Assembly: GCF_033708015.1 (NCBI RefSeq)
Contig: NZ_CP137920.1
Location: forward strand, 1,860,001-1,924,000
Reading direction: 5' to 3'
Length of the DNA: 64,000 nucleotides
DNA from: Proteus vulgaris
Lineage (GTDB): Bacteria; Pseudomonadota; Gammaproteobacteria; Enterobacterales; Enterobacteriaceae
Below are positions 45,481 to 62,908 of the stretch, in pieces (within the stretch, counting starts at the first letter, position 1; each line of letters opens with the position of its first letter). The position numbers were made by a program, and so were the translations under genes. The notes under the pieces were generated by a model, which saw nothing but the letters and a program-made list of their open reading frames with translations, was not told the origin of the DNA and searched no databases.

Positions 45481-46602
45481 TTATTCTTCGAAGTACCAAT
45501 ATCCTTGATTGATAAATTCGGTTAATTCCGCAACAAAGGCTGGGTTCTTCAATGCTTCACCGAGTTCCTCTGCGCCAACCTCCGTAAACCGGCACAATGC
45601 ATCTGCTCCTTGTGTTTCTTTGGTCGCCCAACCCTCTGTATTTACAAAGAAATGGTCTCCGATGCGTAGGACGCGTAGTCCGCTTAGGCGGATCAATTTT
45701 TCACCGTCATTCAGCGCATTCAATATTTCTTCTGGTTGATAAGGCGGTTCTGAAGGTGCAATATCTAGCTCATGGCGCGGCGTCGTTGCAAAACGGCCTA
45801 ACCACTGTTCAAAATCATCAGGTTTATTGATCATTTCAATCATCATGGCACGTAGGCGTTCAACTTCATAAGTCTCCATTTTTCCTGCATTATCACGCAC
45901 TGTCAGGTTAGGATCGCCATAATTTATGCCCCCCAGATCTTGTTCCAGTGCATAGTCTGCAAAGCTACTCAGTAAATCACGGCCATTGGGTCCACGAAAA
46001 CCAACTGAATAGTTCATGGTATCTTCAAAGGTGAAACCATCGTGAGGAAACCCAGGTGGAATATACAAAATATCTCCTGGTGACATTTCCACATCAATAA
46101 TTGGCTCAAAGGGATCAACATGGAGTAAGGCGGGGTGCGGGCAGAACTGGCGCATAGGTAGGGCATCGCCCACGCGCCAGCGACGACGTCCCATACCTTG
46201 AATGATAAAAACATCATAGTTGTCAATATGTGGTCCGACACCACCACCAGGCACGGAATAGGAGATCATCAAGTCATCAAGACGCCATTCTGGTAACACT
46301 CGAAACGGTTTCACGAGTTCAGCCGCTGGCATATGCCAATGATTGACAGCCTGCACCAGCAGTGACCATCCTTCTTCGCCTAATTCGCTGAAGTCTTCAA
46401 ACGGGCCGTGACTTGCCTGCCATTTGTTGCCAGTCAGGCTGACAAGGCGGCTGTCAATTTCTGGTTCCATTGCCAAACCAGCCAGTTCATCTGGTGTGAT
46501 TGGGTCAACAAAATTAGGAAATGCATTTTTCAGTACAACAGGTTTTTTTTGCCAGTATTTTTCTAAAAATTCAGGCCAGTTAAGATTCAGTTTATTAACC
46601 AT
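45481..46602 (-). CDS. roxA: Ribosomal protein L16 arginine hydroxylase (RoxA/YcfD)
   Basis: 373 aa, same length as E. coli YcfD. JmjC-type Fe(II)/2-oxoglutarate oxygenase with iron ligands H125 and D127 (GPHIDNYD) and H187 (GFPHDG), followed by a dimerisation and winged-helix C-terminal part. It hydroxylates an arginine of ribosomal protein L16. E. coli carries it far from the terminus; here it is the last gene before dif. Confidence 0.95.
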   Translation of the reverse strand: MVNKLNLNWPEFLEKYWQKKPVVLKNAFPNFVDPITPDELAGLAMEPEIDSRLVSLTGNKWQASHGPFEDFSELGEEGWSLLVQAVNHWHMPAAELVKPFRVLPEWRLDDLMISYSVPGGGVGPHIDNYDVFIIQGMGRRRWRVGDALPMRQFCPHPALLHVDPFEPIIDVEMSPGDILYIPPGFPHDGFTFEDTMNYSVGFRGPNGRDLLSSFADYALEQDLGGINYGDPNLTVRDNAGKMETYEVERLRAMMIEMINKPDDFEQWLGRFATTPRHELDIAPSEPPYQPEEILNALNDGEKLIRLSGLRVLRIGDHFFVNTEGWATKETQGADALCRFTEVGAEELGEALKNPAFVAELTEFINQGYWYFEE

Positions 46603-48490: not shown

Positions 48491-51142
48491 TTATTTTAAA
48501 AGCAAACTCAATGTATTTACTCGCCCATTATCCCAGTTAAAATGCACCAAACGCCCTGTTTTGTCGAAAAAATACCATTGACTAAATTCATTTCGATATT
48601 GTGGTGCGAAAATTGTGGGCCATTTAAGTTCAAAGGTGCAGTGATTTTGATTGTTATATAAACGAAATATCGTTAATTCATCTTTTTGCCAATAAATTAA
48701 TTTTGCTGATCTTGAAATTAAATGCAAAGAATGTTGTTCTTCAATCGATTGAGTATTAGGCAACTGTAAACGTTGGGTATAGTGTGAGTTTATTGATGTG
48801 AGCACGCATTTATCATGTTTTACAGTATAATATGAGTGAGACATCAGGTCATATTTGCATCCCTCACTAAAAGTATGAGATAAGCTTTCTCGCTGAGTTA
48901 ACCAACGATTGGGTAATGTATACGACCAGCGTTCGTTGGGTTCACTATTAATTAGCCAATATTCGGCGCCATTGTGACGAAGAAGCTCGATAATATCACC
49001 ATTCAACGAATCCACATTCCAAACTATTTTAAAGTCATTTTTAGTATCAACAACGTGAACGGCATTGTGAATGGCAATAGTCCAAAAAACACCATCAAAA
49101 TTACGGGTGAAAACAGTACATTTTAGCGTACCAAGTTCTTGGATAAACTGTGTTGTGATTGCTAATGAACTAATCTGGAAATAATCACCCCTTGGTGCCA
49201 ACAATAAAGCGCTTTGGTTATTTTCTGCGATAACAATATGATAAGTTGGAGTTAATTGATGCCAAAGTTGCTTTCCTGCTTTATCTGTTAACAACACTCC
49301 AGATTCGCCTAATGCGATAAGATATTGGTGATCATTTAAGGCAACGACATCGTAAATAGCATAAAGCCCTTGTTCTGGAATAGTGGCAGAAATAAAGTGA
49401 TTTTGCGCATCTAGTGAATAGCATTTAGGTTCTGGAATATCACTCTGAGGGATATCGACTTTAAATAATTTATTCGTACTTTTATGAATAAATTGGCTAA
49501 TTTCTTTTCTCTCTAATACAGAATGAGCACCATATTGATCAACTATAATAGGTCGAATTAATTGATTAATCAGTTGTTCAGTTAATTTGGTTTGCTTAGG
49601 TAATGCTAATAGCTCTCTGACTAAAATGGCGCGTTGAATAGTGGCAAGTGGATCGTTACATACCTTTTTAATATCATCTTGATATAAATGAACAGTGTCA
49701 GGTAATAAAAATATTGATTTTACAATACTACGTAGGCTTAATTCTCCACCAGCTTGATAAGCAATTTCTAACCAATGTTTGGCTTTATTACGACTTATTT
49801 CATTGTTTAATTGCCAGATAATATCGATAGCTTGTAAATAATCTTCACAGTCAACCAGATATTCAGCCCACTCTTCACGCATCTTATCTGCAATATCAGG
49901 ATGTTTTTCTTGTAACTGTAATACGACGTAGGAAAAAGCATTATGTAGGCGAGCATAAATAACAGCAGAATCAATATCGCCCGCTAAGCAATATAAGCGA
50001 ATAATATAAGCCGGTGGCATTGCCCATAATCGAGCTAGTTCAGCGGCTTGTTGATAGCGTTGAAAGCTTTCTAAATAATCTAGAGCTTCTTCTTTTTCTT
50101 GCAATAATTCAGCCAGAACAAATAACGCTTCTTCATTACGCCCTGCTTTATCTAGCTTTATAAACTGTTGACGATAAAGTTGTTTTAAATAATTTTGCAG
50201 TTCATCTCCAAAATAAAGACTTTTACGTCCTTGTTGATTGTCTGATATTTCTAGTTTATTTCGCCCTTTTAATCGCCCTAAATAAGGTGAAGGCGTAGTT
50301 TCTTGGTTTTCTTGATGCTTACTCAGTGGAATACCATGACGCAATGCTTGATCGACATTACCATCTTCAAACATTTTCATCATTTTATTAATATAATTCG
50401 CTTGTTGCTTACTCATCATAGAGGCTAATCCGCTTTTAATTGAAAGCTTATTTAGCCAATGTTGCCACCGTGATAATTGAGATGTCGTTTTAGATGAAGA
50501 GTACATCGCTTCACGATTTTGGGGCGTCAGAAAGTTATTAATGATTTTCTGAGTTAGTGATAACGACGCTTTTGCATGAGGTTCTTGTGTTTGAGATGAC
50601 GACGAAGCGTTTTCAAATACTGTTTTTATAAATTGCTTTTGTTTATCATCTGCCGGTGGAATATTGTCACCAATAATCGTTCTAATATTTTTCTCTTCTG
50701 ACAATGCTTGAGGTTTTATCTCATATAGACTGGCGTAGTTATCAGTTTCTTCAAAATGAATCTCTTTAATATCAAGATAATCAGCAAGTGATAGAGGTTC
50801 AGCTTGTGAAAATAGAAGTGTTGTTACAACACCACTACGAACTAAAGCAAGATCTGCATAAGGAAGCTTTTTGAGCTCATCATCATCTAAAGGTGCTGTG
50901 CTATAAAGGCGACCGTAACGAATTAAAGGCCATCCCTCAATGGATGAGCAATCCAGCGTTTTATTTTCAGCAAAACAGAGAACGTCCCCTTGTTCGAATC
51001 GATAAATACGACAATTAGTTTGCCAATGTTTTATTAAATAAGTCAGCCGTTGAGTCTCGTTAAACCAGTCATTTGGTAGCCATAAACCTTCGATCTGACG
51101 ATATCCCAATAACATGGGGTGACGAATATAATCATCACGCAT
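48491..51142 (-). CDS. Large beta-propeller protein of a MoxR-vWA ternary system
   Basis: 883 aa from ATG 51142, which overlaps the preceding stop by 8 bp and has AAGGTG 9 bp upstream (a TTG at 51166 is an alternative). N-terminal part about 1-170 is a compact domain (RYGRLYSTAPLDDDELKKLP); 250-560 is helical, repeat-like (EEALFVLAELLQEKEEALDYLESFQRY); 570-883 shows repeated four-strand blades with terminal W (LTDKAGKQLW, FFDKTGRLVHFNWDNG), a beta-propeller. Assigned to the bpX families by context and architecture. Cytoplasmic. Confidence 0.8.
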   Translation of the reverse strand: MRDDYIRHPMLLGYRQIEGLWLPNDWFNETQRLTYLIKHWQTNCRIYRFEQGDVLCFAENKTLDCSSIEGWPLIRYGRLYSTAPLDDDELKKLPYADLALVRSGVVTTLLFSQAEPLSLADYLDIKEIHFEETDNYASLYEIKPQALSEEKNIRTIIGDNIPPADDKQKQFIKTVFENASSSSQTQEPHAKASLSLTQKIINNFLTPQNREAMYSSSKTTSQLSRWQHWLNKLSIKSGLASMMSKQQANYINKMMKMFEDGNVDQALRHGIPLSKHQENQETTPSPYLGRLKGRNKLEISDNQQGRKSLYFGDELQNYLKQLYRQQFIKLDKAGRNEEALFVLAELLQEKEEALDYLESFQRYQQAAELARLWAMPPAYIIRLYCLAGDIDSAVIYARLHNAFSYVVLQLQEKHPDIADKMREEWAEYLVDCEDYLQAIDIIWQLNNEISRNKAKHWLEIAYQAGGELSLRSIVKSIFLLPDTVHLYQDDIKKVCNDPLATIQRAILVRELLALPKQTKLTEQLINQLIRPIIVDQYGAHSVLERKEISQFIHKSTNKLFKVDIPQSDIPEPKCYSLDAQNHFISATIPEQGLYAIYDVVALNDHQYLIALGESGVLLTDKAGKQLWHQLTPTYHIVIAENNQSALLLAPRGDYFQISSLAITTQFIQELGTLKCTVFTRNFDGVFWTIAIHNAVHVVDTKNDFKIVWNVDSLNGDIIELLRHNGAEYWLINSEPNERWSYTLPNRWLTQRESLSHTFSEGCKYDLMSHSYYTVKHDKCVLTSINSHYTQRLQLPNTQSIEEQHSLHLISRSAKLIYWQKDELTIFRLYNNQNHCTFELKWPTIFAPQYRNEFSQWYFFDKTGRLVHFNWDNGRVNTLSLLLK

Positions 51143-53039
51143 TTGGGGTGTCACCTTCTTGTTCAATGGTATACAGATTTAGGCGTAATTGTTTTTGGTA
51201 TACATCATAAACAACGACTTGAGCATGCTCTGTTAATGCAGCAAAAAGACCTTTAGATGGGCTAAATGAGTAACGTGTAAACGGATTATCTGCACGATAT
51301 AAAATTTCTATATCACCGTTTGAATAACTGGCAATATTTCGTTTGTTTGGGCTGATCATCAAAATATTCAAGGTGGTTAAATCGACTTCTGAAGAGCCAT
51401 CGAGTATAGGATGAAAAAGCCCTATTCCTTGCCACCCTTGAGGTAAGTCTATTGGATAACCATAAACCTCATCAACTTCCATATTATAGACATGCCAACT
51501 TTGTCGATTAGTATCTAATGAAATAGCACAAGAGATTGATTTAGAACCATCAGTATATTTATGGTAATAGGCAAATAAGGCACTTCTTTGATAGGAAATA
51601 AATTGAGGGAAATAGAGTTGATGTTGATAACGCTTTTGAGAAAAGTCAGCACCCGTGACCATTTGAACTAATTGACTACTCTCATTGAGATAAATATATA
51701 CCAGCAGATTATCTGCTATTTTCTCTATGCCAAGGACTTTCTCTTCAACGATTTTAAAGCTATTTTTTTCTTCAGCATAAATATTGTGTGAAAAGGCGAC
51801 CAACTGTTTCGCCCTATCATGAACAAATAAACTGAAATATTCCTTATTATTATTAGCTAAATAAGCACTAGCCAGTGTATTACCTCGCCCAATACCCGCT
51901 GAAAACGCTTTATCAGAAGGTCGAGGCATATAAGAGAGTTTGGGTAATTGCCAAAAATAGAGTCCGTTGTTATTGGAAAGCAATGCGCCTACCTTTCTCC
52001 CGTGACACTGTAACGCCAAAACAGTGTAACCATCAGGATATACTTGGTATACAAACGGTTTTTTAAGTTCACGGTTTTGATTTAATCTATTCAGTGGTGG
52101 AACTTTGATCACTAGAAGTCCAGGTTTGCCTAATAAAGTAACACCTACCGCGCTACCATGAAATGAGATAACAGGCGAAAACATCAGTGATATTTTGTGT
52201 TTGTGTTGATGCGTATTTTGCACTGAAGGAGGTCTTATTTGCCCTTTTAATATCTGTGAGCTTAATGCACTAGGCGGTGTTGATAATACAAGATGTCGTT
52301 GAAAATGAGGTGTGCGAATTTTGACATCAATCGTTTTATTGAAACAATCATCTGCCGTTAATTCAATATGATGACTTGATGCAATGGGTTTCAATATAGG
52401 TTGTTGATGAGCGCCCGTGACTAACCAAATCTCACCGTTTTGTGCATCAATATCTTCGCTAATAACGTTTTGCCAATGTGTAATATTTTCTTGTAAAACA
52501 GGAGAGTAAGTTCGACGTGTCAATAATTCATATAGATCATTTATGGTGTTTAAAGGCATTAATGGAATGATTGATTGGAGTGTTCCCCACATTAATGTAC
52601 ACCCCGCTTTTTCTGCTCGCTGAGCCAATAAAATAAGTAATGCAATGTGGACTAGACGACATTCACCCAGTTGCGAAATTCCCGTATCAAAAAGGACGGT
52701 GATTTGATTTAAAGATTGTTGAGATTTATAGTTTGGTGCTAAAAAGAGATGTTCTGCATTGATGGCTCGTCTCATAAATTCATCAGGCACTTCATCAGCC
52801 ATTAACCACTCGCTAAGTAGCAGATTTTGATAATTTCCTTTGCGCTGTATTTGACCAATACCATCTTGTTCAGGTACGCCACCAAGTTGTGCTCCTTGTA
52901 CAGGGCCCAATACACGATTCAGGCGTTGTAATACATCAGAAAATGCAGGAATTAGTTCGGGATCTAACCAGCTAAGCCAAGGTTGCCAAGGTTGTAGTGC
53001 TTCGGGTAACGAGATGGATTGTGTTGTGGATAATGGCAT
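51135..53039 (-). CDS. vWA plus beta-propeller protein of the ternary system
   Basis: 634 aa. Residues about 68-215 form a vWA domain with a degenerate MIDAS (DTGIS at 118-122; canonical DxSxS has lost its first serine). Residues about 240-634 are strand-rich blades (ALLSNNNGLYFWQLP, LFAALTEHAQVVVYDVYQKQ), a beta-propeller. No signal peptide. It links the MoxR ATPase to the larger propeller protein. Its end overlaps the next gene. Confidence 0.82.
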   Translation of the reverse strand: MPLSTTQSISLPEALQPWQPWLSWLDPELIPAFSDVLQRLNRVLGPVQGAQLGGVPEQDGIGQIQRKGNYQNLLLSEWLMADEVPDEFMRRAINAEHLFLAPNYKSQQSLNQITVLFDTGISQLGECRLVHIALLILLAQRAEKAGCTLMWGTLQSIIPLMPLNTINDLYELLTRRTYSPVLQENITHWQNVISEDIDAQNGEIWLVTGAHQQPILKPIASSHHIELTADDCFNKTIDVKIRTPHFQRHLVLSTPPSALSSQILKGQIRPPSVQNTHQHKHKISLMFSPVISFHGSAVGVTLLGKPGLLVIKVPPLNRLNQNRELKKPFVYQVYPDGYTVLALQCHGRKVGALLSNNNGLYFWQLPKLSYMPRPSDKAFSAGIGRGNTLASAYLANNNKEYFSLFVHDRAKQLVAFSHNIYAEEKNSFKIVEEKVLGIEKIADNLLVYIYLNESSQLVQMVTGADFSQKRYQHQLYFPQFISYQRSALFAYYHKYTDGSKSISCAISLDTNRQSWHVYNMEVDEVYGYPIDLPQGWQGIGLFHPILDGSSEVDLTTLNILMISPNKRNIASYSNGDIEILYRADNPFTRYSFSPSKGLFAALTEHAQVVVYDVYQKQLRLNLYTIEQEGDTPNA

Positions 53040-53080
53040 GATGATAATTCGATCCTTGTATCACATTATATTTCACTATT

Positions 53081-53509
53081 TCACTCGAAACACAACTGGG
53101 TGAGTGTTTCCTGTAGCTTTGGTGTTAATGTCCATTGATTATCTAAAGGGATCACCGTTGAAGGTGATGGTAAAAGTAATAATGGCTGGCGTTTAAAATG
53201 CTGCACTAAGGCTTGCTCCACCAGCCCATCAGGCAATAAAAGCTGTTGATGTATAGGGAGCCATAATTTTGCTGTTTGAGTAGAAGGTGCAATCAGCGTT
53301 ATGTTGTCAATCCAAGGTAAATCAGCCGGCTTCCCCAGTACAATCAGCCGATGCTGACTGGTGATCACTTTTAACCGTTTTTGCTGAGCATCAGGCAGAT
53401 GAATGATTCGCTCAATAAGCTGTTTAGCCGTTATACCTATTGCAACCCCTCCTTGTGGTTTAGGTGGCATTGCATTAGGTTGCCACGTCAGTGGAAATGT
53501 TAGGCTCAT
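53081..53509 (-). CDS. Small bpX-type ternary system protein
   Basis: 142 aa, strand-rich with AKLWLPIHQQLLLPDGLVEQAL and PLLLLPSPSTVIPLDNQW, the look of the small bpX domains encoded with MoxR-vWA-propeller genes. Its ATG overlaps the MoxR stop by 4 bp, so it is translationally coupled. The exact bpX subfamily number cannot be assigned by eye. Confidence 0.78.
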   Translation of the reverse strand: MSLTFPLTWQPNAMPPKPQGGVAIGITAKQLIERIIHLPDAQQKRLKVITSQHRLIVLGKPADLPWIDNITLIAPSTQTAKLWLPIHQQLLLPDGLVEQALVQHFKRQPLLLLPSPSTVIPLDNQWTLTPKLQETLTQLCFE

Positions 53510-54624
53510 AATAAGTGACTAAACTGTATTGCTAATTGTGTACGTAATACGGCAAGCTCTTCACTTAACATTTCTGTTGAGAAGTTGGCATCGATTTCTC
53601 TTAACGTCAGTTCAATGTCTGCTTTAGAGACAGGTTCTGCATTGAGAACATCTGTGGCTCTTTCAATTAGACGGTGCATACGAGACTGAGGTTGCAATGT
53701 CGCCTCTTCTACGGAACTAAATAATCGAGAATTCATTGAAAGTGAGAGTTCTTGTCGTAAGATTTCACGTCCTTGTTGTTGCGCATCTTCAGTAGGCAGT
53801 ACATACAGTAAAGGCCAGAGATCTTGTTCTGTCGCAATCTCTCGATTATTGAGTACGGTTGCGGCGGCAATAAGACGTTGAACACGAACAATGCGCCTAT
53901 CTGAAAGCGTGATCCCTGCGTTTCTTAATGAACGCACAGCATTAGCCAGCAACGGTCTGACTTGTGTTAAGTCGACATTTTTAACCGCAAGGTATAATTC
54001 ATCTAATTGAGCAATATCGAGTTGAGCTGAAAGATGAGTCAGGCTTGAAGCCCATCCACCTTCAAGCATAGCTTCTAATTGGTGATCGGGTATGGGATCA
54101 ATAAAAAGATGAATAAGAAAGCGATCTGAGAATGCGGCGAGGTTAGGATCATCAGGCAAATTATTAGCCGCACCAATACACACTTTTAATGGACTAATAA
54201 TATCGGTATGACCACGCTTAAATCGACGCTCATTTAAAATACCTAATAAGGTATTTAAAATTGCCGTTGAGCCCAGAAAAACCTCATCAAGAAAAACAAT
54301 ATCCGCTTCAGGTAGCATTCCTGTGGTATCAGTTTCAACTTTACCTTCTTTTAGTTTTTTGAGGTCAACGGCGCCAAATAACTCTGAAGGTTCAGTAAAA
54401 CGCCCTAAAAGGTATTCAAAATAACGTCCACCTAATGTTTGAGAAACTCTGCGGACAACCGCACTTTTCGCTGTACCTGGCGGGCCGATAACAAGCAAAT
54501 GTTCATGAGCAACGGCGGCTAAAACAACTAGCTCAGCAAGTTGCTCTCGTCCAATCATACCTTGCGTTGAATGTTGTATTGCTTTGCGAATATTATCGAT
54601 AATTCCATTTATATTTGATGTCAT
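53506..54624 (-). CDS. MoxR-family AAA+ ATPase
   Basis: 372 aa from ATG 54624 (GTG at 54636 possible; neither has a strong ribosome site). Walker A GPPGTAKS (47-54), Walker B IVFLDE (D113, E114), sensor 1 GAANNLP and the AAA lid at 290-372. MoxR ATPases act as chaperones that remodel vWA partners. First gene of the four-gene bpX block; 225 bp separate it from the upstream hydrolase gene. Confidence 0.93.
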   Translation of the reverse strand: MTSNINGIIDNIRKAIQHSTQGMIGREQLAELVVLAAVAHEHLLVIGPPGTAKSAVVRRVSQTLGGRYFEYLLGRFTEPSELFGAVDLKKLKEGKVETDTTGMLPEADIVFLDEVFLGSTAILNTLLGILNERRFKRGHTDIISPLKVCIGAANNLPDDPNLAAFSDRFLIHLFIDPIPDHQLEAMLEGGWASSLTHLSAQLDIAQLDELYLAVKNVDLTQVRPLLANAVRSLRNAGITLSDRRIVRVQRLIAAATVLNNREIATEQDLWPLLYVLPTEDAQQQGREILRQELSLSMNSRLFSSVEEATLQPQSRMHRLIERATDVLNAEPVSKADIELTLREIDANFSTEMLSEELAVLRTQLAIQFSHLL

Positions 54625-54849
54625 ATGTTTACGCACAAATTAAGAGTTTAGCAGCGAGATGCTTGCATTATGTGATTTTTTATTTTCTGGCTCAACTTTT
54701 TTAATTAAATAACATTTTTATATTTTTTATAAAACGTTTCATTACATATAACTTTAGTAATAATACTACCTATATTAGTGAAAGAAAAAGAAATGGGTTT
54801 ATCTTTATTTCTCAAATAATGAAAATATCATTAATCAATGAAGATTGAT

Positions 54850-56091
54850 TTATTTGTGTATTTTCCTTCTCTCTGTTGCAATATCAAACGCTAAACTTCG
54901 TAAATTAGGGGTATGGTTTATTAATGCACGATGCGTTGATGCTTGGCTAATAAAAGCAAAACTGTTTCCCCACGGATGTTGATAACGATCACGTACAATA
55001 GGCGCACTCCAATGTTGTAGTAATCCTTCTAAAGGAAGGTGATCGTCACCTACTGTTAATGTTTGAGCCACTAATTGTGGAAATTCACGTTTAATCTCTT
55101 TAGCTTGTAAATACCAGCGATCTCTACCATAAATGGCGGCTTTTAACGTGATATTGTTGTCACTCAAATACCATACTTGTGGCACGGCTTGTTCATCTGC
55201 ATTAATACCTGAAACCGCATCAGTAAAGCGTTTAGCACCTTGTAAATTTTTTGCCAATGCTTCTCTCACTCGTTGATTTTGAGCTGAACTGATTGATGTT
55301 TTATAAGGGCCTAAACGATAGTGCTCCCAACATGCCTCATCATAGATATCAAAATCATTTAATGCTCTGCCGTAGCTATCTATTACCACAGGATTTGGCG
55401 GCAATAGTTGATATACAAAAGGACAACCACAGACATCATCAGGAGAGAACCCATAAAGATAACGGCTTCCTGCGTAATAACCTGTCTCCATCATGGATAA
55501 TGCTTGAAATGTGCCGTGCCAAGGTGGACCAAAAGCGTACCACTTAGCGACTAATGCCCTATTTTCTGGTGTGGTATGCCGTAACCAATAACGAATTGCA
55601 AGATTAGACGCAGATTGAGCAATAAAAATAAAAGGCTGGTTTTCGCCAAAAATAGTTTTTAGTCGATCAACTTCTCTATCAATAGTATCCACCAGCACTC
55701 GATGATCAGCTCGCCAATCATGGGCAAGGAAAAACAGATCTTGCCCTTCGCGATAACCTAATGCTGTTTCAAGCACATCTTTAAGCTCTTGAGTGACAAG
55801 AGTGCTCACTAAATAAGGGACAATCGAAAATGCGTGCAATTGCTCGGTGGCTAATACGCGAGGCGAATGCTGAGTGCTGGGGTACTCATATTCATAATCA
55901 CTTTTTGTAAAGACACTACGATGATCACCCCAAATAAAGGCCTGCTTTTGTCTATCAAAAAGCTTAGTCCCTAGAATTCCGGGTAAATAAATAATAGGAA
56001 GATTCGGTATTTTATCATCAAGTTTCGCTTGACGGATTTGAGCCGCAATAAGTTGAGCACGTATTAATGACCATCCTCTATTGAGTGGCAT
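54850..56091 (-). CDS. LCAT-like alpha/beta hydrolase
   Basis: 413 aa, no signal peptide. Lecithin:cholesterol acyltransferase-like features: oxyanion region LPGILGTKLFD (36-46), HDWRAD (124-129), nucleophile elbow FIAQSASN with S160, a late acid in TVGDDHLPLEG and His in THRALINH. The elbow AQSAS lacks both glycines of GxSxG. It could act as a lipase, acyltransferase or thioesterase. Four bp after the radical SAM stop, so it ends the luxEC-like operon. Confidence 0.85.
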   Translation of the reverse strand: MPLNRGWSLIRAQLIAAQIRQAKLDDKIPNLPIIYLPGILGTKLFDRQKQAFIWGDHRSVFTKSDYEYEYPSTQHSPRVLATEQLHAFSIVPYLVSTLVTQELKDVLETALGYREGQDLFFLAHDWRADHRVLVDTIDREVDRLKTIFGENQPFIFIAQSASNLAIRYWLRHTTPENRALVAKWYAFGPPWHGTFQALSMMETGYYAGSRYLYGFSPDDVCGCPFVYQLLPPNPVVIDSYGRALNDFDIYDEACWEHYRLGPYKTSISSAQNQRVREALAKNLQGAKRFTDAVSGINADEQAVPQVWYLSDNNITLKAAIYGRDRWYLQAKEIKREFPQLVAQTLTVGDDHLPLEGLLQHWSAPIVRDRYQHPWGNSFAFISQASTHRALINHTPNLRSLAFDIATERRKIHK

Positions 56092-56095
56092 ATTT

Positions 56096-57514
56096 TTAGC
56101 GTCCTTTTAATGGAATAAGTGTGATCGGCACATTTTCGCTACCAAGATGCGTTTTTTCGGCTTCAGTAACAGGAAAGTGAGCACGATCGTAAACCTCAAA
56201 CAGTTGGCAAGGTTCATTTTGGTGATGATAAAGGCGGATCCCCTCTGCTTTAGGGCTACTTTTGGACAACATAAAGCGATGGCAACAATTGGTGCTGATT
56301 GGACCAACAGGCTCTCCCTGTCGCGTAATAAATTGATAATAAATCGGTGAGTCATTTTTTTGTTCAATATGGCAAGCCTGAACAGGACCACGGAAAAGAT
56401 GTGTAATACAAATAAAATTATCAGGAATACGCTCTGATAATTTGTCAGTGTTAGGATCAGCCCAAGGTAAAATAATGGAAGGTTGGAAATGACAATGAGG
56501 ACATTGCCCATTATCTAAGTGAGATTGTGCAATTAGCCCACTGCGTTTCACTAACAAGGTTTGGCATTCAGGGCAATAAGAGTTAGCGCTGTCTGTATCA
56601 AACACATTCCCCACATAAACATAGCGCATACCTTCATTTAAGGCTTGCTGACGAGCTTGTTCAAGAAAAGAGATCGATGTGCGTTCGACATGGCGATATT
56701 GGTAATCAGGATGGAAACGAACATAGTGTAATGGAATATCTGCATCAAGATACTTAAGCATCCAATCTGTGACTTTCTTCGCTTCTTCCAGTGAGTCATT
56801 ACGTCCCGTCACACATAAGTTAGAGACTTCAAGATGCGGACTATTTGTGGATTTACGCGCATCATAAACTTGTTTAATACCGTCAAGAACGGGCTGTAAT
56901 CGCCCTCCTGTATGTTTACGATAAAAGCTATCCTGCATTGATTTTAATGAAATACTAAAGATATCCATAACGCCTAGTAATTCATCAATGGCTTTTTCGC
57001 TGATATAAAATGCACTTTTATAGAGATTCTTTAAGCCATGTTCACGGGCAAGCTTCGCCGTATCCATAACAAATTCATGCCAAACGATTGGGTCGTTATA
57101 AGTCCACGATAGCACACGGATATTGTGTTTTAATGCATAATTGACCACATCTTCAGGGCTGTAATAAGCCACATGACTATCTTGCACATAACGGGCTTGG
57201 CTTGTACTCCAGTTTTGGCAAAAATCACAACGTAGCATACAACCGATATTACCTAACGATAAAATACGTTCACCAGGTGCATAATGGTAAACCGCTTCGG
57301 TTTCTATCGACTCTTGTGTCATTGGTACCGATTTGCCATAGTTTAGTGTGACTAAACGGCCATTTTCATTACGTCTTAACTTACAAGTCCCTGTACGGCC
57401 TAACTGAATTTTACATGCCCGAGGGCACAGCTCACATTGAATGCGATCGTTTGAAATTGGATGCCATAAGCGAGCAGGATGCCCTGTTTGTTGCCATTGT
57501 TTCATTCTTGCCAT
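56096..57514 (-). CDS. AmrS-type radical SAM enzyme with C-terminal extension
   Basis: 472 aa. N-terminal Cys cluster (CELCPRACKI with C27, C30, C34; C44), then the radical SAM motif CMLRCDFC (C92, C96, C99) and SWTYNDPIVWHEF, typical of the AmmeMemoRadiSam radical SAM family (pyruvate-formate-lyase activator-like). Typical members are nearer 330-350 aa; here a zinc-ribbon-like pair CPECQ/CPHCH and about 110 more residues follow. The usual AMMECR1 and Memo partners are absent from the window. Co-transcribed with the acylase gene (3-bp gap). Confidence 0.9.
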   Translation of the reverse strand: MARMKQWQQTGHPARLWHPISNDRIQCELCPRACKIQLGRTGTCKLRRNENGRLVTLNYGKSVPMTQESIETEAVYHYAPGERILSLGNIGCMLRCDFCQNWSTSQARYVQDSHVAYYSPEDVVNYALKHNIRVLSWTYNDPIVWHEFVMDTAKLAREHGLKNLYKSAFYISEKAIDELLGVMDIFSISLKSMQDSFYRKHTGGRLQPVLDGIKQVYDARKSTNSPHLEVSNLCVTGRNDSLEEAKKVTDWMLKYLDADIPLHYVRFHPDYQYRHVERTSISFLEQARQQALNEGMRYVYVGNVFDTDSANSYCPECQTLLVKRSGLIAQSHLDNGQCPHCHFQPSIILPWADPNTDKLSERIPDNFICITHLFRGPVQACHIEQKNDSPIYYQFITRQGEPVGPISTNCCHRFMLSKSSPKAEGIRLYHHQNEPCQLFEVYDRAHFPVTEAEKTHLGSENVPITLIPLKGR

Positions 57515-57517
57515 GAA

Positions 57518-59767
57518 TTATTCCTTTTTATCATTACCATAATGGTTATTTGTACAAAGAGGCAAAACGGTTTTTTGCCGGGTTCCTGCTTGCCAACATT
57601 CCAATACATGACGCAATGTCCAGTAAAAAGGATTTCCTTTTGCTGGAGTGTTGATTAAATAGTGGCATTCCCCTTGTGGGGTTAAATGGGCGATCAGTTT
57701 AAAACCAGGGCCAAAGGTATAAGGCTTAGTTTTAATGGTGTCGGTCTTGCCTATTTGAGATTGCGTCAAAAAATCAGCATTCTGCCTTGTTGCATGAATA
57801 GTTTCTCGATTACCGCCTTGATAAGGATAACGCCCCGTTAATAGGCGATTAAGCCACAATGGTTTTTTGATACTATGCTGAAATTCAACGTAAGGACGCT
57901 CCATTTTCTGGCTGGCAATTAATGCGCTCGCATAGGTTTCACGAATTATGGTAGAAAGTGCATCTTGCTCAAACTGCCAATCTTGAAGATGGTATTGCAG
58001 AATATTGAGTATACTCCAGCGACAACTTGGCCAGAAATCCGTATACAGTGCGCGTGATCCTCTCTTTAGTACCTTCCCTAAAACGCTATCGGTAAGATGC
58101 TGTATCCATACATCAAAAAAACGTGATGCATTGAGCTGTTGGGTATCACAATCCCATTGAGAAAGAATTTTATCTTCAGGTATATAAGGTAATAAAAAAG
58201 CGAGTGCTTTTTGAGCAAATAGATCGGTTTTGTCATCTTGCATCTGACGAAAAGTTTCAAACGTATGTTCTTGAGTTTGCTGGATCAAATGCTCTATACG
58301 TAGCGCTCTTGTTGGTGGATGCCAACGATTAGATAGCGCAGGCTTTCCATCAAAGAGTGAAGCACTGTATTGATTCGCATACAGAACATATCCTCGTTCA
58401 GGATTGTATTCGGCAGGCAAATCATCAAAAGGAACATAACCTTGCCACTGATGTAATGGCTCCGTTAAACTCAATACTAAACTGCCTAATTCACTGTGGC
58501 GTTTAGGAATATACCCCATACTCTGTAAGCCAATATCCCCATGGATATCTGCATATCCCACCATCATGGGGGAATTTTTCACATGCCTTAAGGCTTCTCT
58601 AAATGATGTCCAGTTATGGCATTTTGCGAGTTGATAAAAAGTAATATCGCCACTTGGATTATCTAATGCTGGCCAGCGTAAAAATAAACCGTAGCCCGCT
58701 TTTTCAGACATTAACCGACCTTGTGAATAATCATAAGTGACAAAAGTATGTTGACGCTTTGAGGTTAAACCTATGGTGTGAGTTCTTTTTATTAATGGCT
58801 CCCATCCATGTGTTGTTTCAACCTTTTCGTTTTCTAAATCAATACGTCCCCAATATAAATCTTGATTATCCGCCATAATGCCGACCATTCCCCAAGCCGC
58901 ATGAGGATTACGTCCCACAATAATGCCCGGAGAACCAGGAAAATGTGAACCCATCACACTTAAACCTTCTTTACTCTCTAAACGGCATAATAGATTAAAA
59001 CTTGGGTTAACGTGTCCCATATGGGGATCAGCAGCTAACATAGGTTTTCCTGATCGGGTGTGAGAACCATTCACCGCAATCACATTAGAGCCAGTATCTG
59101 GTGATGCTAAACCTAAATGCTGTAAGCCTTTTAATCCCTCTTTAAATGCAGCGATCACTTCAGGATAATATTCCCCCTGTTCATCTAAAGGTAATGGCGG
59201 GATTTGATCGCCTTCAAGGCTAAACGTTGATAAAAGTTGCTGATGTTGAGACGGCGTCAGTCGATTGGCTAGACGAGTGTGAAATAATTCATATTGCCAA
59301 GCTGAATTAATAAAATATTTCAGTTGTCCTAACAGATAACTATCTGTGGTGGTAAAAAATTCAGGTTTATAACGCAGTAATAAACACTCTATTGGACGGA
59401 TTTTTAACTCTTTTATGGCTTGGTTAATACCTGCGATATACGCAGTAATATGCTGAAATTGAATCGCTTGCCAGCTGTTAGGTTGTGCATTTTTATCCTC
59501 AAGCTCCGCGATTTTGGCTAGTTCAACCAATCCTAATCGGCGTTGGAAAATATCTGTTCTAAGCGCACCATTTCCCATCACTTCACTTAATCGACCGCTA
59601 GCGACTCGACGTGATAAGTCGAGTTGCCACAAACGTAAATAGGCAGCACCATAACCTTGCCCATAAAAAACCGCATTATCTGTATCACCTTTGATACTGA
59701 GAAGCTGGTCTGTTTCTAGTGACAACGTCACGTTTCCCCATTGCGAAGTAAGTGTCCTTGGCTTCAT
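57518..59767 (-). CDS. Penicillin acylase family Ntn hydrolase, cytoplasmic type
   Basis: 749 aa. Autocatalytic cleavage site G226/S227 (SPDTGSNVIAVNG), giving an N-terminal serine nucleophile; AADPHMGHVNPS and GSPGIIVGRNPHAAWGMVG are family blocks. Unlike periplasmic penicillin or AHL acylases it has no signal peptide, so it should act in the cytoplasm on an amide made or used there. Its ATG overlaps the SDR stop (ATGA), showing coupling. Confidence 0.92.
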   Translation of the reverse strand: MKPRTLTSQWGNVTLSLETDQLLSIKGDTDNAVFYGQGYGAAYLRLWQLDLSRRVASGRLSEVMGNGALRTDIFQRRLGLVELAKIAELEDKNAQPNSWQAIQFQHITAYIAGINQAIKELKIRPIECLLLRYKPEFFTTTDSYLLGQLKYFINSAWQYELFHTRLANRLTPSQHQQLLSTFSLEGDQIPPLPLDEQGEYYPEVIAAFKEGLKGLQHLGLASPDTGSNVIAVNGSHTRSGKPMLAADPHMGHVNPSFNLLCRLESKEGLSVMGSHFPGSPGIIVGRNPHAAWGMVGIMADNQDLYWGRIDLENEKVETTHGWEPLIKRTHTIGLTSKRQHTFVTYDYSQGRLMSEKAGYGLFLRWPALDNPSGDITFYQLAKCHNWTSFREALRHVKNSPMMVGYADIHGDIGLQSMGYIPKRHSELGSLVLSLTEPLHQWQGYVPFDDLPAEYNPERGYVLYANQYSASLFDGKPALSNRWHPPTRALRIEHLIQQTQEHTFETFRQMQDDKTDLFAQKALAFLLPYIPEDKILSQWDCDTQQLNASRFFDVWIQHLTDSVLGKVLKRGSRALYTDFWPSCRWSILNILQYHLQDWQFEQDALSTIIRETYASALIASQKMERPYVEFQHSIKKPLWLNRLLTGRYPYQGGNRETIHATRQNADFLTQSQIGKTDTIKTKPYTFGPGFKLIAHLTPQGECHYLINTPAKGNPFYWTLRHVLECWQAGTRQKTVLPLCTNNHYGNDKKE

Positions 59768-60786
59768 TTGGACTCCTTATTCAGCAATATAGCTTGTTCA
59801 GCAATGCTTCTGGCATAAGTCTTAAAGTCATTTAAAGGCTCACCCGCTGTCCACCCTAATAATTGTTCTGCTTTACAAGATGAATAGGTATAAGTGCTTC
59901 CATCCATAATACGCAGTGCCTCACAGGAAAGTGGCATGGAGAAACCAAGTAAGGCAAGTTTATCCATCATCCATGCTAAAGGTCGTAAACTACTGCGATT
60001 TTTGATAGGTAAGGGTGCCGTTTTTTGTATTTCACTGAGTAATGTGAAAATCTCTGGCATAGAAAAAACATCACCCGTAAAGAGAACCGTTTCTTGGGGT
60101 TTATCTAAGGCAAGTAATCGCAATAATCCATCACATAATTTTTCAACATGGCAAAGTTGAAAGGTGCTATTTGTACTGACTTGAAACGGAATTTTTTGAT
60201 TGAAAAAAGCAGATAATGTTTGTGCTAAAACGCTCTTATCACCTTGACCAAACACACCGCCACAAATCGCAATTTTAATTGGCATACCTTGTTGTTGCTG
60301 ATGTTCGACTAATACGTGAGCAATTTGCTTTGTTTCTTCATAATAACTACGAAAATAGCCATTATGACGATGCGTTTCATCAAGCAATAGACCTTGAGTT
60401 TCGCCCAGTGCGGCTGTGGTACTGGTATATAAAATCTGAGGGATTTGCGCTCTTTTCGCCTCATTAAGTAAATCCACTGTGCCAGTAACATTGGTTTGAT
60501 ACATTTTTTGATGTTCAAAACGACTAGGCGCAATACCGACTCGATAATCAGCGGCTAAATGAATCATAATATCCTGTCCAACAAGGGCTTCACGATAAGT
60601 ATCGGGTTGGCATAAATCCCCTTTTATGATTTTCACACCTGACGGCAATTCAGGACGATTAGGATGAATTTTATTGGGTTCTCGACACAATACTGTTAAT
60701 TCGTCACCAAGTTCTGCAAGCTTCGGTAATAAATAAGAGCCAATGAATCCAGTTGCACCAGTGATAAATATTTTCCGTTTATTCAA
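59764..60786 (-). CDS. Extended SDR (NAD-dependent epimerase/dehydratase-like)
   Basis: 340 aa. Rossmann motif TGATGFIGSYL (GxxGxxG), HLAADYRVG, and active site YYEETK (YxxxK) with upstream TSTTA. Resembles hopanoid-associated or dihydroflavonol-type sugar/alcohol reductases. In this operon it may reduce or oxidise the LuxC aldehyde product or a derivative. Overlaps the acylase start. Confidence 0.9.
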   Translation of the reverse strand: MNKRKIFITGATGFIGSYLLPKLAELGDELTVLCREPNKIHPNRPELPSGVKIIKGDLCQPDTYREALVGQDIMIHLAADYRVGIAPSRFEHQKMYQTNVTGTVDLLNEAKRAQIPQILYTSTTAALGETQGLLLDETHRHNGYFRSYYEETKQIAHVLVEHQQQQGMPIKIAICGGVFGQGDKSVLAQTLSAFFNQKIPFQVSTNSTFQLCHVEKLCDGLLRLLALDKPQETVLFTGDVFSMPEIFTLLSEIQKTAPLPIKNRSSLRPLAWMMDKLALLGFSMPLSCEALRIMDGSTYTYSSCKAEQLLGWTAGEPLNDFKTYARSIAEQAILLNKESK

Positions 60787-60791
60787 TGTGA

Positions 60792-61871
60792 CTATCCTTC
60801 CTGATTAATAAAAAACACCAGTGTGGCTAACATAAAAAAGCCATCATGCGTTGCTGTCATTGGACGAGAATGCATTGAGCCAATGGGACAATAGCGAGTG
60901 AAGCTATATTGTTGTGGTGAAATTGATGAAAGTGAGCCGTGATAACCTAATGTTTGTAAGCGCGCAAACCACTGTTTTTGAGCTAACTGCAAATGATGCT
61001 CAACGGAGCCCACAATTAATTGAAAGCCAAAATTAAGCCAATATTGAGGTAAGAATTGGGTTTGGTAAGTGATCGCCCAGCCCGAATTTGCGTCGTAGCG
61101 TGTCGGCTTTTCATTATTAAGCAAGTCACGAGATAATGCATATTCGTGTGCTTGTGCCATTTGTTGAAGCTTTACTGTTTCTGGCAATGGAGGTAATGAC
61201 GCTAATGCCATAGACAATTGCTGATAAAGCTGTTGAGCGCAATTTTCATTCTCTAATAGGATAAAACGTGGTGAGCTACAAACTTGCTGTCTGAATAAAC
61301 AAACATCTTTTAAAATAAGGGAAATATCAGGTAATGATCTCCCTAAAATAGCCATTGCACTTATTTTAGGCCCTAACTCAATTAATTTAATTGGTGCTGG
61401 CGTTACTTGGCGATAATGTTGGATCAGTGCATCACCACCCGCCAATAAAATCGCTTCAACACCGTTAAGAATTCGCTCATCATTTTGATTTTCACTCGAC
61501 CAATCAAGAATTTCACACTCATTTTCATTTAAACCTAAATAAGCACGTAAAAGATAAAGCCATTGAGTGGATAATCGCGCTTTTATTCGGATAGAGCTCC
61601 CAATTAAATAGCCAGCAAGTAGTGCCTCTAATGTACCTAGGGGATCTTTTTCTGATACCACAATGAGTAATTTATTCGGTGCTCGCCAGCATTTGCCCCC
61701 CAATTCATTAGCGACTTTTTGTGCTAATACGTCGCTATAAGCCCATTGTGTTAAACGGTTAAGGCAGAATGCTTGCGTCATGGGATCATCAGAGAATAAC
61801 CAATCCTCATTAAGGCAGTGTATTAAACACTGTTTAATGTTTGCTAAACGAACGTGTATTGCTTCTGTCAT
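60792..61871 (-). CDS. LuxC-like acyl-CoA reductase
   Basis: 359 aa from ATG 61871, which overlaps the preceding stop as ATGA (the frame runs six codons further upstream). The LuxC family (aldehyde-dehydrogenase-related) catalytic cysteine is C198 in RQQVCSSPRF; IELGPKISAMAI is the nearby conserved block. LuxC reduces acyl-enzyme or acyl-CoA to a fatty aldehyde with NADPH. It is shorter than luminous-bacteria LuxC (about 480 aa). Confidence 0.88.
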   Translation of the reverse strand: MTEAIHVRLANIKQCLIHCLNEDWLFSDDPMTQAFCLNRLTQWAYSDVLAQKVANELGGKCWRAPNKLLIVVSEKDPLGTLEALLAGYLIGSSIRIKARLSTQWLYLLRAYLGLNENECEILDWSSENQNDERILNGVEAILLAGGDALIQHYRQVTPAPIKLIELGPKISAMAILGRSLPDISLILKDVCLFRQQVCSSPRFILLENENCAQQLYQQLSMALASLPPLPETVKLQQMAQAHEYALSRDLLNNEKPTRYDANSGWAITYQTQFLPQYWLNFGFQLIVGSVEHHLQLAQKQWFARLQTLGYHGSLSSISPQQYSFTRYCPIGSMHSRPMTATHDGFFMLATLVFFINQEG

Positions 61872-62908
61872 TTTACCTGCGCCGCACAAGTGCCCTCGGG
61901 TGAAGTCGCTCTGCCGATATAGTGAATATAGGGTAATGGATGACTACAAGCGCATTGTGTGCCCCATAAACCTAAGTCTTGGGTTAATAGGCGCTGAGAA
62001 GCTAATGAATCAAAAAAAGGATTTTCAAGTTGGATAAGGCCTACTTTCCTTTCTGGCGCTCGATCACCTGTTTCATCAATAATGGCAAAACGAGAGTAAG
62101 CAGGAATGTGGAAATGACCTTCACTGCAACTAATGTAGTGTAAAGGATGCTCTGTCATGCCATAAATATCACGAATATCGACATTGGGAGCATGTAAAGT
62201 TTCTTTTAATCCTTGAATAATATCTGGGCGTTCAAGTTGTTTTGTCATCCCTTTCCATCCCCCACCGGTTAGCCCTTTAATCGGTGATAACAGAGTGAAT
62301 GCATCAGGGCGACTTAAGCATAAATGTTCAAAGAAAAGGGTTAGCCCAAGAATGTAGATAGGCGCAGGATCATTCGCCCAACGTTGCAATGTTGACCATG
62401 CTAATTTTGTATCAAACTGACCGTGTTCGGACACCGTAAAAACCAGCTCTTTAATGGGAGCACATTGGGTAAATTTTAAGAAAGCTGTCGCAAAACCAGC
62501 ATGATCGCCAGATTGAGGATCAGGAGACAACATTAGAAAACGAGCGGGAGTGGTTGATATTAAGCCATTGTGATAGAAAATCTGCGTCATTGCAGTTTCA
62601 ATGCGCTTTAGGCTGACATCATCAAAGAAAACTTGTGTCTTTCCTTGTTGCCCTGTTCCTGAACTGTTTAGCCAGATACCGTTACGATGTGTGGGTGTGG
62701 CTAAATCCATAGTTTTAAATAAATTAACTGGAATAACTGGTTGAGGCATTTTTTGCCATAATGATTGATAGTTAGCATTATTTTTGCGATGCCAGTTATC
62801 AGCTTCATTCATAGATGCAGTAAAAAGTGCATCATCAAAACTATCAACAGCATAAGGCTGAGCGAGATTAACTAAATTATCCATCTCATAACGCTGCTCT
62901 TCTAACAT
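61868..62908 (-). CDS. LuxE-like acyl-protein synthetase
   Basis: 346 aa, ATG with AAGGA 7 bp upstream. Adenylate-forming features: NSSGTGQQGKT (81-91, nucleotide loop), LTGGGWKGM and DIYGMTEHP. LuxE activates fatty acids as acyl-AMP, then as a thioester on a cysteine near its C-terminus; here C341 is six residues from the end and could play that role (inference). First gene of the operon; a 447-bp region separates it from a divergent amidohydrolase. Confidence 0.9.
   Translation of the reverse strand: MLEEQRYEMDNLVNLAQPYAVDSFDDALFTASMNEADNWHRKNNANYQSLWQKMPQPVIPVNLFKTMDLATPTHRNGIWLNSSGTGQQGKTQVFFDDVSLKRIETAMTQIFYHNGLISTTPARFLMLSPDPQSGDHAGFATAFLKFTQCAPIKELVFTVSEHGQFDTKLAWSTLQRWANDPAPIYILGLTLFFEHLCLSRPDAFTLLSPIKGLTGGGWKGMTKQLERPDIIQGLKETLHAPNVDIRDIYGMTEHPLHYISCSEGHFHIPAYSRFAIIDETGDRAPERKVGLIQLENPFFDSLASQRLLTQDLGLWGTQCACSHPLPYIHYIGRATSPEGTCAAQVK

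Follow-up and report, generated by a model that had tools for sequence, protein, structure and literature searches.

A conserved six-gene block combining LuxE/LuxC-type enzymes with a partner-less AmmeMemoRadiSam-type radical SAM enzyme in Proteus and its relatives

What does a LuxE-LuxC pair do when its companions are not luciferases? The question is raised by a 64,000-nucleotide stretch of Proteus vulgaris contig NZ_CP137920.1 (the window), in which six minus-strand genes fill positions 54850–62908. They encode a LuxE-type acid-activating enzyme, a LuxC-type reductase, a short-chain dehydrogenase/reductase (SDR), an N-terminal nucleophile (Ntn) acylase, a radical S-adenosylmethionine (SAM) enzyme, and an LCAT-like hydrolase. 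The LuxE-LuxC and SDR-acylase junctions are ATGA overlaps, while the remaining neighbors are separated by 5 bp (LuxC-SDR), 3 bp (acylase-radical SAM), and 4 bp (radical SAM-LCAT). An earlier reading made from the sequence alone (the sequence-only reading) had given this layout, and its coordinates and family calls were confirmed. We consider it reasonably probable that the six genes constitute one cytoplasmic operon that makes or remodels a small molecule or lipid through acid reduction by a LuxE/LuxC thioester relay; we infer the individual reactions, their order, and co-transcription.

The sequence-only reading hinged on the six families staying together in other genomes. All six genes, in identical order and strand, are present in 16 of 16 genomes found to carry this LuxE/LuxC type, a set that spans five genera and combines a LuxC search of 99 relatives with a LuxE search across the family (392 genomes). 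The LuxC search found a close homolog in 8 of the genus's 20 genomes (the window's own included) and in one genome of another genus, with a weak match in G031; the LuxE search returned 36 matches, of which 10 scored ≥550 bits and the other 26 ≤205 bits. A single-protein scan of genome contigs recovered two Proteus loci only; a better query would have been an alignment. Block proteins of the other 15 genomes are 50–98% identical to those of the window (50–85% in other genera, with the radical SAM enzyme highest), and the window's LuxC shares 89% identity with its Proteus cibi counterpart. An internal stop is absent from 95 of the 96 block genes; the stops printed for four other genes (LuxC of G022, G664, and G469; the acylase of G659) fall beyond the open frames observed. 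Between two Proteus species, the ratio of nonsynonymous to synonymous substitution rates (dN/dS) is 0.042–0.117, and the block genes are under strong purifying selection. Because the order is shared by all 16 genomes and dN/dS is this low, the block is not a chance grouping. Within Proteus a genome either has the complete block or has lost it, G012 and G014 showing an empty site and G009 a remnant. A class sample (369 genomes) yielded two more weak LuxE matches, neither with the block (G315 has an SDR 26% identical nearby), and in an order sample (389 genomes) only the window's own LuxC reached E 1e-20. Given these two samples, the block appears to be rare and, as far as sampled within its own phylum, the only one searched, confined to one family.

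At the core of the block is the LuxE-LuxC pair. LuxE (61868–62908, minus strand; 346 amino acids) matches Pfam PF04443 with 64 bits and contains an SSGTG loop, a YGMTE motif, and a C-terminal Cys341. The short LuxC (60792–61871, minus strand; 359 amino acids from its ATG) matches Pfam LuxC with 51 bits and places a catalytic-type Cys198 within VCSSP; its start codon, the ATG at 61871, shares an ATGA with the stop of LuxE, and a TTG at 61889 would lengthen the frame. The SSGTG loop and the VCSSP cysteine, both pointed out by the sequence-only reading, are conserved features: Cys198 is kept in 15 of 15 rows, and Cys341, the putative acyl-transfer cysteine near the LuxE C-terminus, is invariant in 9 of 9 alignment rows and present in 8 of 8 six-gene rows as judged by eye from the printed C-terminal ends. 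LuxE aligns with the LuxE of PDB 7xc6, its SSGTG pairing with SSGTS of 7xc6_E. The top match of a LuxC structure model is the LuxC of that same LuxC-LuxE complex, followed by aldehyde dehydrogenases, with model residue 1 pairing with residue 61 of 7xc6_A, such that the N-terminus is ~60 residues shorter. Since both relay cysteines are kept and the LuxC model best matches the LuxC of a solved complex, LuxE and LuxC likely perform acid-to-aldehyde reduction.

A related LuxE-LuxC pair in another genus lacks both relay cysteines in 3 of 3 genomes, and this joint loss suggests that Cys341 of LuxE and Cys198 of LuxC work together. We term this pair related rather than sister because the LuxE tree does not put it outside the six-gene rows: it falls among them on a long branch (fork support 92/90). 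At all three loci (L092, L093, and L094), the cysteine-less pair adjoins a GNAT acetyltransferase, a transporter of the sodium:sulfate symporter family, and an AraC/GyrI-like regulator (Pfam assignments from L093 only), and may have some non-thioester job.

The sequence-only reading was supported in part, namely in a conserved operon-like block with an acid activation and reduction core, here marked by relay cysteines and a LuxC-like fold. A fatty acid as the substrate, the LCAT-like protein as a stand-in for LuxD, and the making or cutting of an amide are conjectural. The reading overlooked the type of the radical SAM enzyme and a beta-propeller system next door. The radical SAM gene (56096–57514, minus strand; 472 amino acids) matches Pfam Radical_SAM with 54 bits, and residues 15–344 score 315 bits against TIGR04337 (AmmeMemoRadiSam), above the curated cut-off of 220. 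A CxxxCxxC motif lies at residues 92–99 and two CxxC pairs at 314–341. Two features set it apart from the AmmeMemoRadiSam system. First, its partners are missing: AMMECR1 was found in 0 of 15 genomes and Memo likewise in 0 of 15, nine of these genomes carrying the six-gene block, whereas the same search was positive for each in 5 of 14 control genomes. Second, the protein continues into an extra C-terminal region of ~130 residues containing EVYDRAHFP. Among 398 genomes of a phylum sample, 101 had a radical SAM match at E 1e-30, but only G827, G866, and G920 encode near full-length relatives besides the window's own copy (447–458 bits); the remaining matches score ≤283 bits and end by residue 375. 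The AmmeMemoRadiSam-type enzyme of this block is thus a partner-less, rare long form, which is a new finding.

The three distant relatives share a C-terminal EV(Y/F)DRAHFP motif, and in each genome the long radical SAM gene overlaps (ATGA) a gene for a Cys/Met-type pyridoxal phosphate (PLP) enzyme, assigned by Pfam on the G920 copy, with which the other two share 51% and 48% identity. A gene for an adenylation-domain protein precedes in G866 (Pfam) and G827 (56% identical to that of G866 and cut by the contig end), and in G920 an aminotransferase gene follows. Given these neighbors, the long form recurs with acid-activating or amino-acid enzymes. Searching 48 genomes from the class to which G866 belongs, and 194 sampled from the order of G920, added no further long relatives. 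We know of no description of these small gene sets (L125–L127), and no reaction for AmmeMemoRadiSam-type radical SAM enzymes came up among the papers listed by our literature search.

The other three enzymes retain the residues expected of their families. The extended SDR (59764–60786, minus strand; 340 amino acids, TTG start) matches Pfam Epimerase with 103 bits and 3Beta_HSD with 75 bits, has GxxGxxG and YxxxK motifs with Tyr149 and Lys153 invariant in 6 of 6 rows, and finds its best PDB relative in 3wj7, a putative oxidoreductase. The Ntn hydrolase (57518–59767, minus strand; 749 amino acids) matches the penicillin acylase family (PF01804, Penicil_amidase; 401 bits) over nearly its full length, with Ser227 as the predicted new N-terminus. 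Ser227, Asn465, and Arg487, which would correspond to the catalytic Ser, Asn, and Arg of such enzymes, are invariant in 6 of 6 rows. Its closest solved relative is D-succinylase (PDB 7eby), and D-succinylase cleaves N-succinyl amino acids. The enzyme therefore resembles penicillin G acylase, D-succinylase, and PvdQ in extent and in these three residues, but it scores far under the NCBIfam PvdQ cut-off (28 bits, cut-off 950), and no hydrophobic signal is visible to the eye at its N-terminus; penicillin acylases are usually, though not universally, exported to the periplasm. The LCAT-like alpha/beta hydrolase (54850–56091, minus strand; 413 amino acids) matches PF02450, and its conserved Ser160, Asp349/Asp350, and His387, presumably a catalytic triad judging from LCAT motifs, are invariant in 16 of 16 rows. 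A profile search of its sequence against PDB sequences gave nothing at E 0.1, so the family call rests on one weak Pfam match together with the conserved residues.

Taken as a pathway, LuxE would activate an acid as acyl-AMP and load it onto its own Cys341, and LuxC would accept the acyl group on Cys198 for NAD(P)H-dependent reduction to the aldehyde. The SDR would then reduce or otherwise process the aldehyde, the Ntn acylase would cut the amide bond of an N-acylated intermediate, and the LCAT-like hydrolase would supply or remove an acyl group in ester linkage. One C-H-activating step, independent of AMMECR1 and Memo, would fall to the radical SAM enzyme. Our first guess for the substrate is a lipid-derived acid, given the lipid-type families to which LuxE/LuxC and LCAT belong, and our second is an N-acyl amino acid. 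More tentatively, and with somewhat greater doubt than belief, we propose that the AMMECR1- and Memo-free radical SAM enzyme, equipped with a substrate domain of its own at the C-terminus, modifies whichever intermediate the relay handles, acid or aldehyde, and that the Ntn acylase unmasks a new small molecule inside the cell.

Two known settings of LuxE and LuxC invite comparison. With the Lux fatty acid reductase (LuxC-LuxE-LuxD), the block shares the LuxE and LuxC families, the SSGTG loop, the LuxC cysteine region, the LuxC-like fold, and a hydrolase gene. It differs in having an LCAT-like protein, matching LCAT only and not LuxD, where the Lux system has LuxD; in its additional SDR, acylase, and radical SAM genes; and in its shortened LuxC. 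The absence of luxA and luxB, as the sequence-only reading had it, agrees with our finding of no luciferase family among the six proteins (Pfam, NCBIfam), the whole genome not having been searched for luxA/luxB-type genes. The second setting lies within the same bacterial family: LuxE/LuxC genes are described in flagellin glycosylation islands of Enterobacteriaceae (PMC4875605). We would read the LuxE relatives of 28–31% identity that accompany a long LuxC as belonging to this sort. They form another LuxE branch, two scanned examples carry GNAT and AMP-binding genes, and tblastn found neither the acylase nor the radical SAM gene in their stretches. In Pfam scans of some neighbors at some of the loci studied, no glycosyltransferase or flagellar family was named.

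Several observations weigh against the proposed acid-reducing operon. The pair falls far short of the NCBIfam equivalog cut-offs (23.1 vs 750 bits for LuxC, 31.5 vs 550 bits for LuxE), and the fatty acid specificity of the Lux system is therefore not transferable to it. The least certain part of the LuxC model, residues 191–200 with a predicted local distance difference test (pLDDT) score below 50, contains Cys198. LCAT is the weakest family match of the six (24.7 bits vs a cut-off of 21), codon 194 of the G664 radical SAM gene is an in-frame stop, and the block has no exporter or carrier protein gene. The Proteus copy and that of G624 lack the adjoining LysR-type gene seen elsewhere (below). 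Finally, LuxE/LuxC pairs of other replicons neighbor exporter genes and genes typical of ribosomally synthesized and post-translationally modified peptides (RiPPs), and a Memo-Ammecr1-related radical SAM enzyme is proposed to modify a peptide by Kaur et al. 2020 (PMC7159879). On a Salmonella enterica IncF plasmid (CP053580.1, L139), LuxE, an AMP-binding protein that aligns with LuxC, and a phenylacetate-CoA-ligase-like gene lie near HlyD and peptidase-domain ABC exporter genes, a set that looks like a modified-peptide cluster; on a Streptomyces europaeiscabiei plasmid (NZ_CP109155.1, L140), LuxE- and LuxC-type genes adjoin YcaO, DUF692-type, and MBL-fold genes in a RiPP-like cluster. A peptide substrate is possible in view of these exporter and YcaO/DUF692 neighborhoods.

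Such surroundings bear on a different product class, in which activation and reduction would take place at the carboxyl group of an N-acylated amino acid, or of a short peptide, and deprotection by the Ntn acylase would then yield an amino alcohol or amino aldehyde. The D-succinylase likeness of the acylase, the PLP enzyme, adenylation-domain, and aminotransferase genes beside the long radical SAM gene in 3 of 3 distant genomes, and the LuxE/LuxC pair adjoining YcaO and DUF692 genes all fit this scheme; however, the block encodes neither a PLP enzyme nor an N-acyltransferase, and the LCAT-like hydrolase would be left without a clear job. We judge it improbable, while keeping it ahead of a purely degradative role. 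The latter, in which an exogenous N-acylated or esterified compound would be broken down and LuxE/LuxC would act on the released acid, draws on the regulator: in three genera (7 of 7 genomes; Pfam on one, G577), a LysR homolog is divergently oriented upstream of luxE. A divergent LysR-type regulator is usual for metabolic operons, and the gene also counts toward the favored acid-reducing operon. In the same seven genomes, the block sits between this gene and two genes read as glmU and glmS (Pfam for G577, similarity for the others); in G624 it adjoins histidine-utilization genes. The patchy distribution of the block and the frequent catabolic use of acylase and hydrolase families favor degradation. 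Against this, ATP-costly acid activation followed by reduction is unusual in catabolism, the block contains no uptake transporter, and the acylase shows no visible export signal; we hold degradation to be unlikely.

The beta-propeller neighbor raises the remaining alternative. Directly downstream of the block, on the same strand and 213 bp away, lies a MoxR-vWA-beta-propeller ternary system (48491–54636) comprising bpX6 (891 amino acids), a 634-amino-acid protein with no Pfam match, bpX5, and bpMoxR. Were the block an effector or accessory part of this putative conflict system, the shared strand and the adjacency, which recurs in five other Proteus genomes, would be accounted for; moreover, such systems are said to lack conventional effectors, and a Memo-Ammecr1-related radical SAM enzyme is reported with a related FtsH ternary system (PMC7159879). 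The distribution speaks otherwise. bpMoxR occurs patchily, reaching ≥280 bits in 8 of the genus's 20 genomes, and accompanies the block in six Proteus genomes, window included, yet each occurs without the other: G013 and G019 keep the six genes intact without the system, and G005 and G009 have the system but not the six genes. Outside Proteus, the stretches examined around the eight six-gene loci contain no beta-propeller genes, and the spacer between block and system, where both occur, varies from ~0.1 to 2 kb. Constant linkage of the six genes to bpMoxR, bpX5, and bpX6 is thus not seen in Proteus. Remnants are found in G009 (residues 374–410 of the LCAT gene, beside bpMoxR) and in G011 (bpX6); the block and the system would have stood together in an ancestor and then been lost separately, and on that ground we left the system out of the operon, the suggestive strand and adjacency notwithstanding. 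These separate losses largely refute an effector role, which we regard as very unlikely. PADLOC defense families matched none of the six proteins, and a defense-system identity was dropped.

The acid-reducing operon that we favor is built of known families. As far as we found, its gene set, its short cysteine-keeping LuxC type, and its partner-less long radical SAM form are apparently undescribed, and among the open-license papers listed none gives an account of the six-gene combination in its title or abstract. Such a compact conserved block could be expressed in the laboratory, and because the AmmeMemoRadiSam-type enzyme lies next to enzymes of largely predictable chemistry, a product could be sought by comparing extracts. 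This would show what role LuxE/LuxC reductases play in Proteus and its relatives apart from bioluminescence, and, if the partner-free radical SAM pathway is real, it would offer a tractable entry to the chemistry of the AmmeMemoRadiSam-type family.

Carriage of the block by plasmids or Escherichia coli was considered and dropped: plasmids gave zero LuxC matches, ≤30.5% identity for LuxE among the matches listed, acylase matches all <60%, and radical SAM matches covering ≤70% of the protein, and the SDR-acylase DNA stretch had zero matches in E. coli genomes. Of the 8 Proteus loci as fetched, 4 have an amidohydrolase gene next to the block at its LuxE end. In the block-free genomes G012 and G014, the amidohydrolase and JmjC genes are <0.9 kb apart with no other query gene between them. 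The window itself encodes a ROXA-like JmjC protein at 45481–46602; a copy ~60% identical is present in 12 of 12 Proteus genomes searched, and 7 of these 12 also have a close copy (91–96%), two of them matched only partly.

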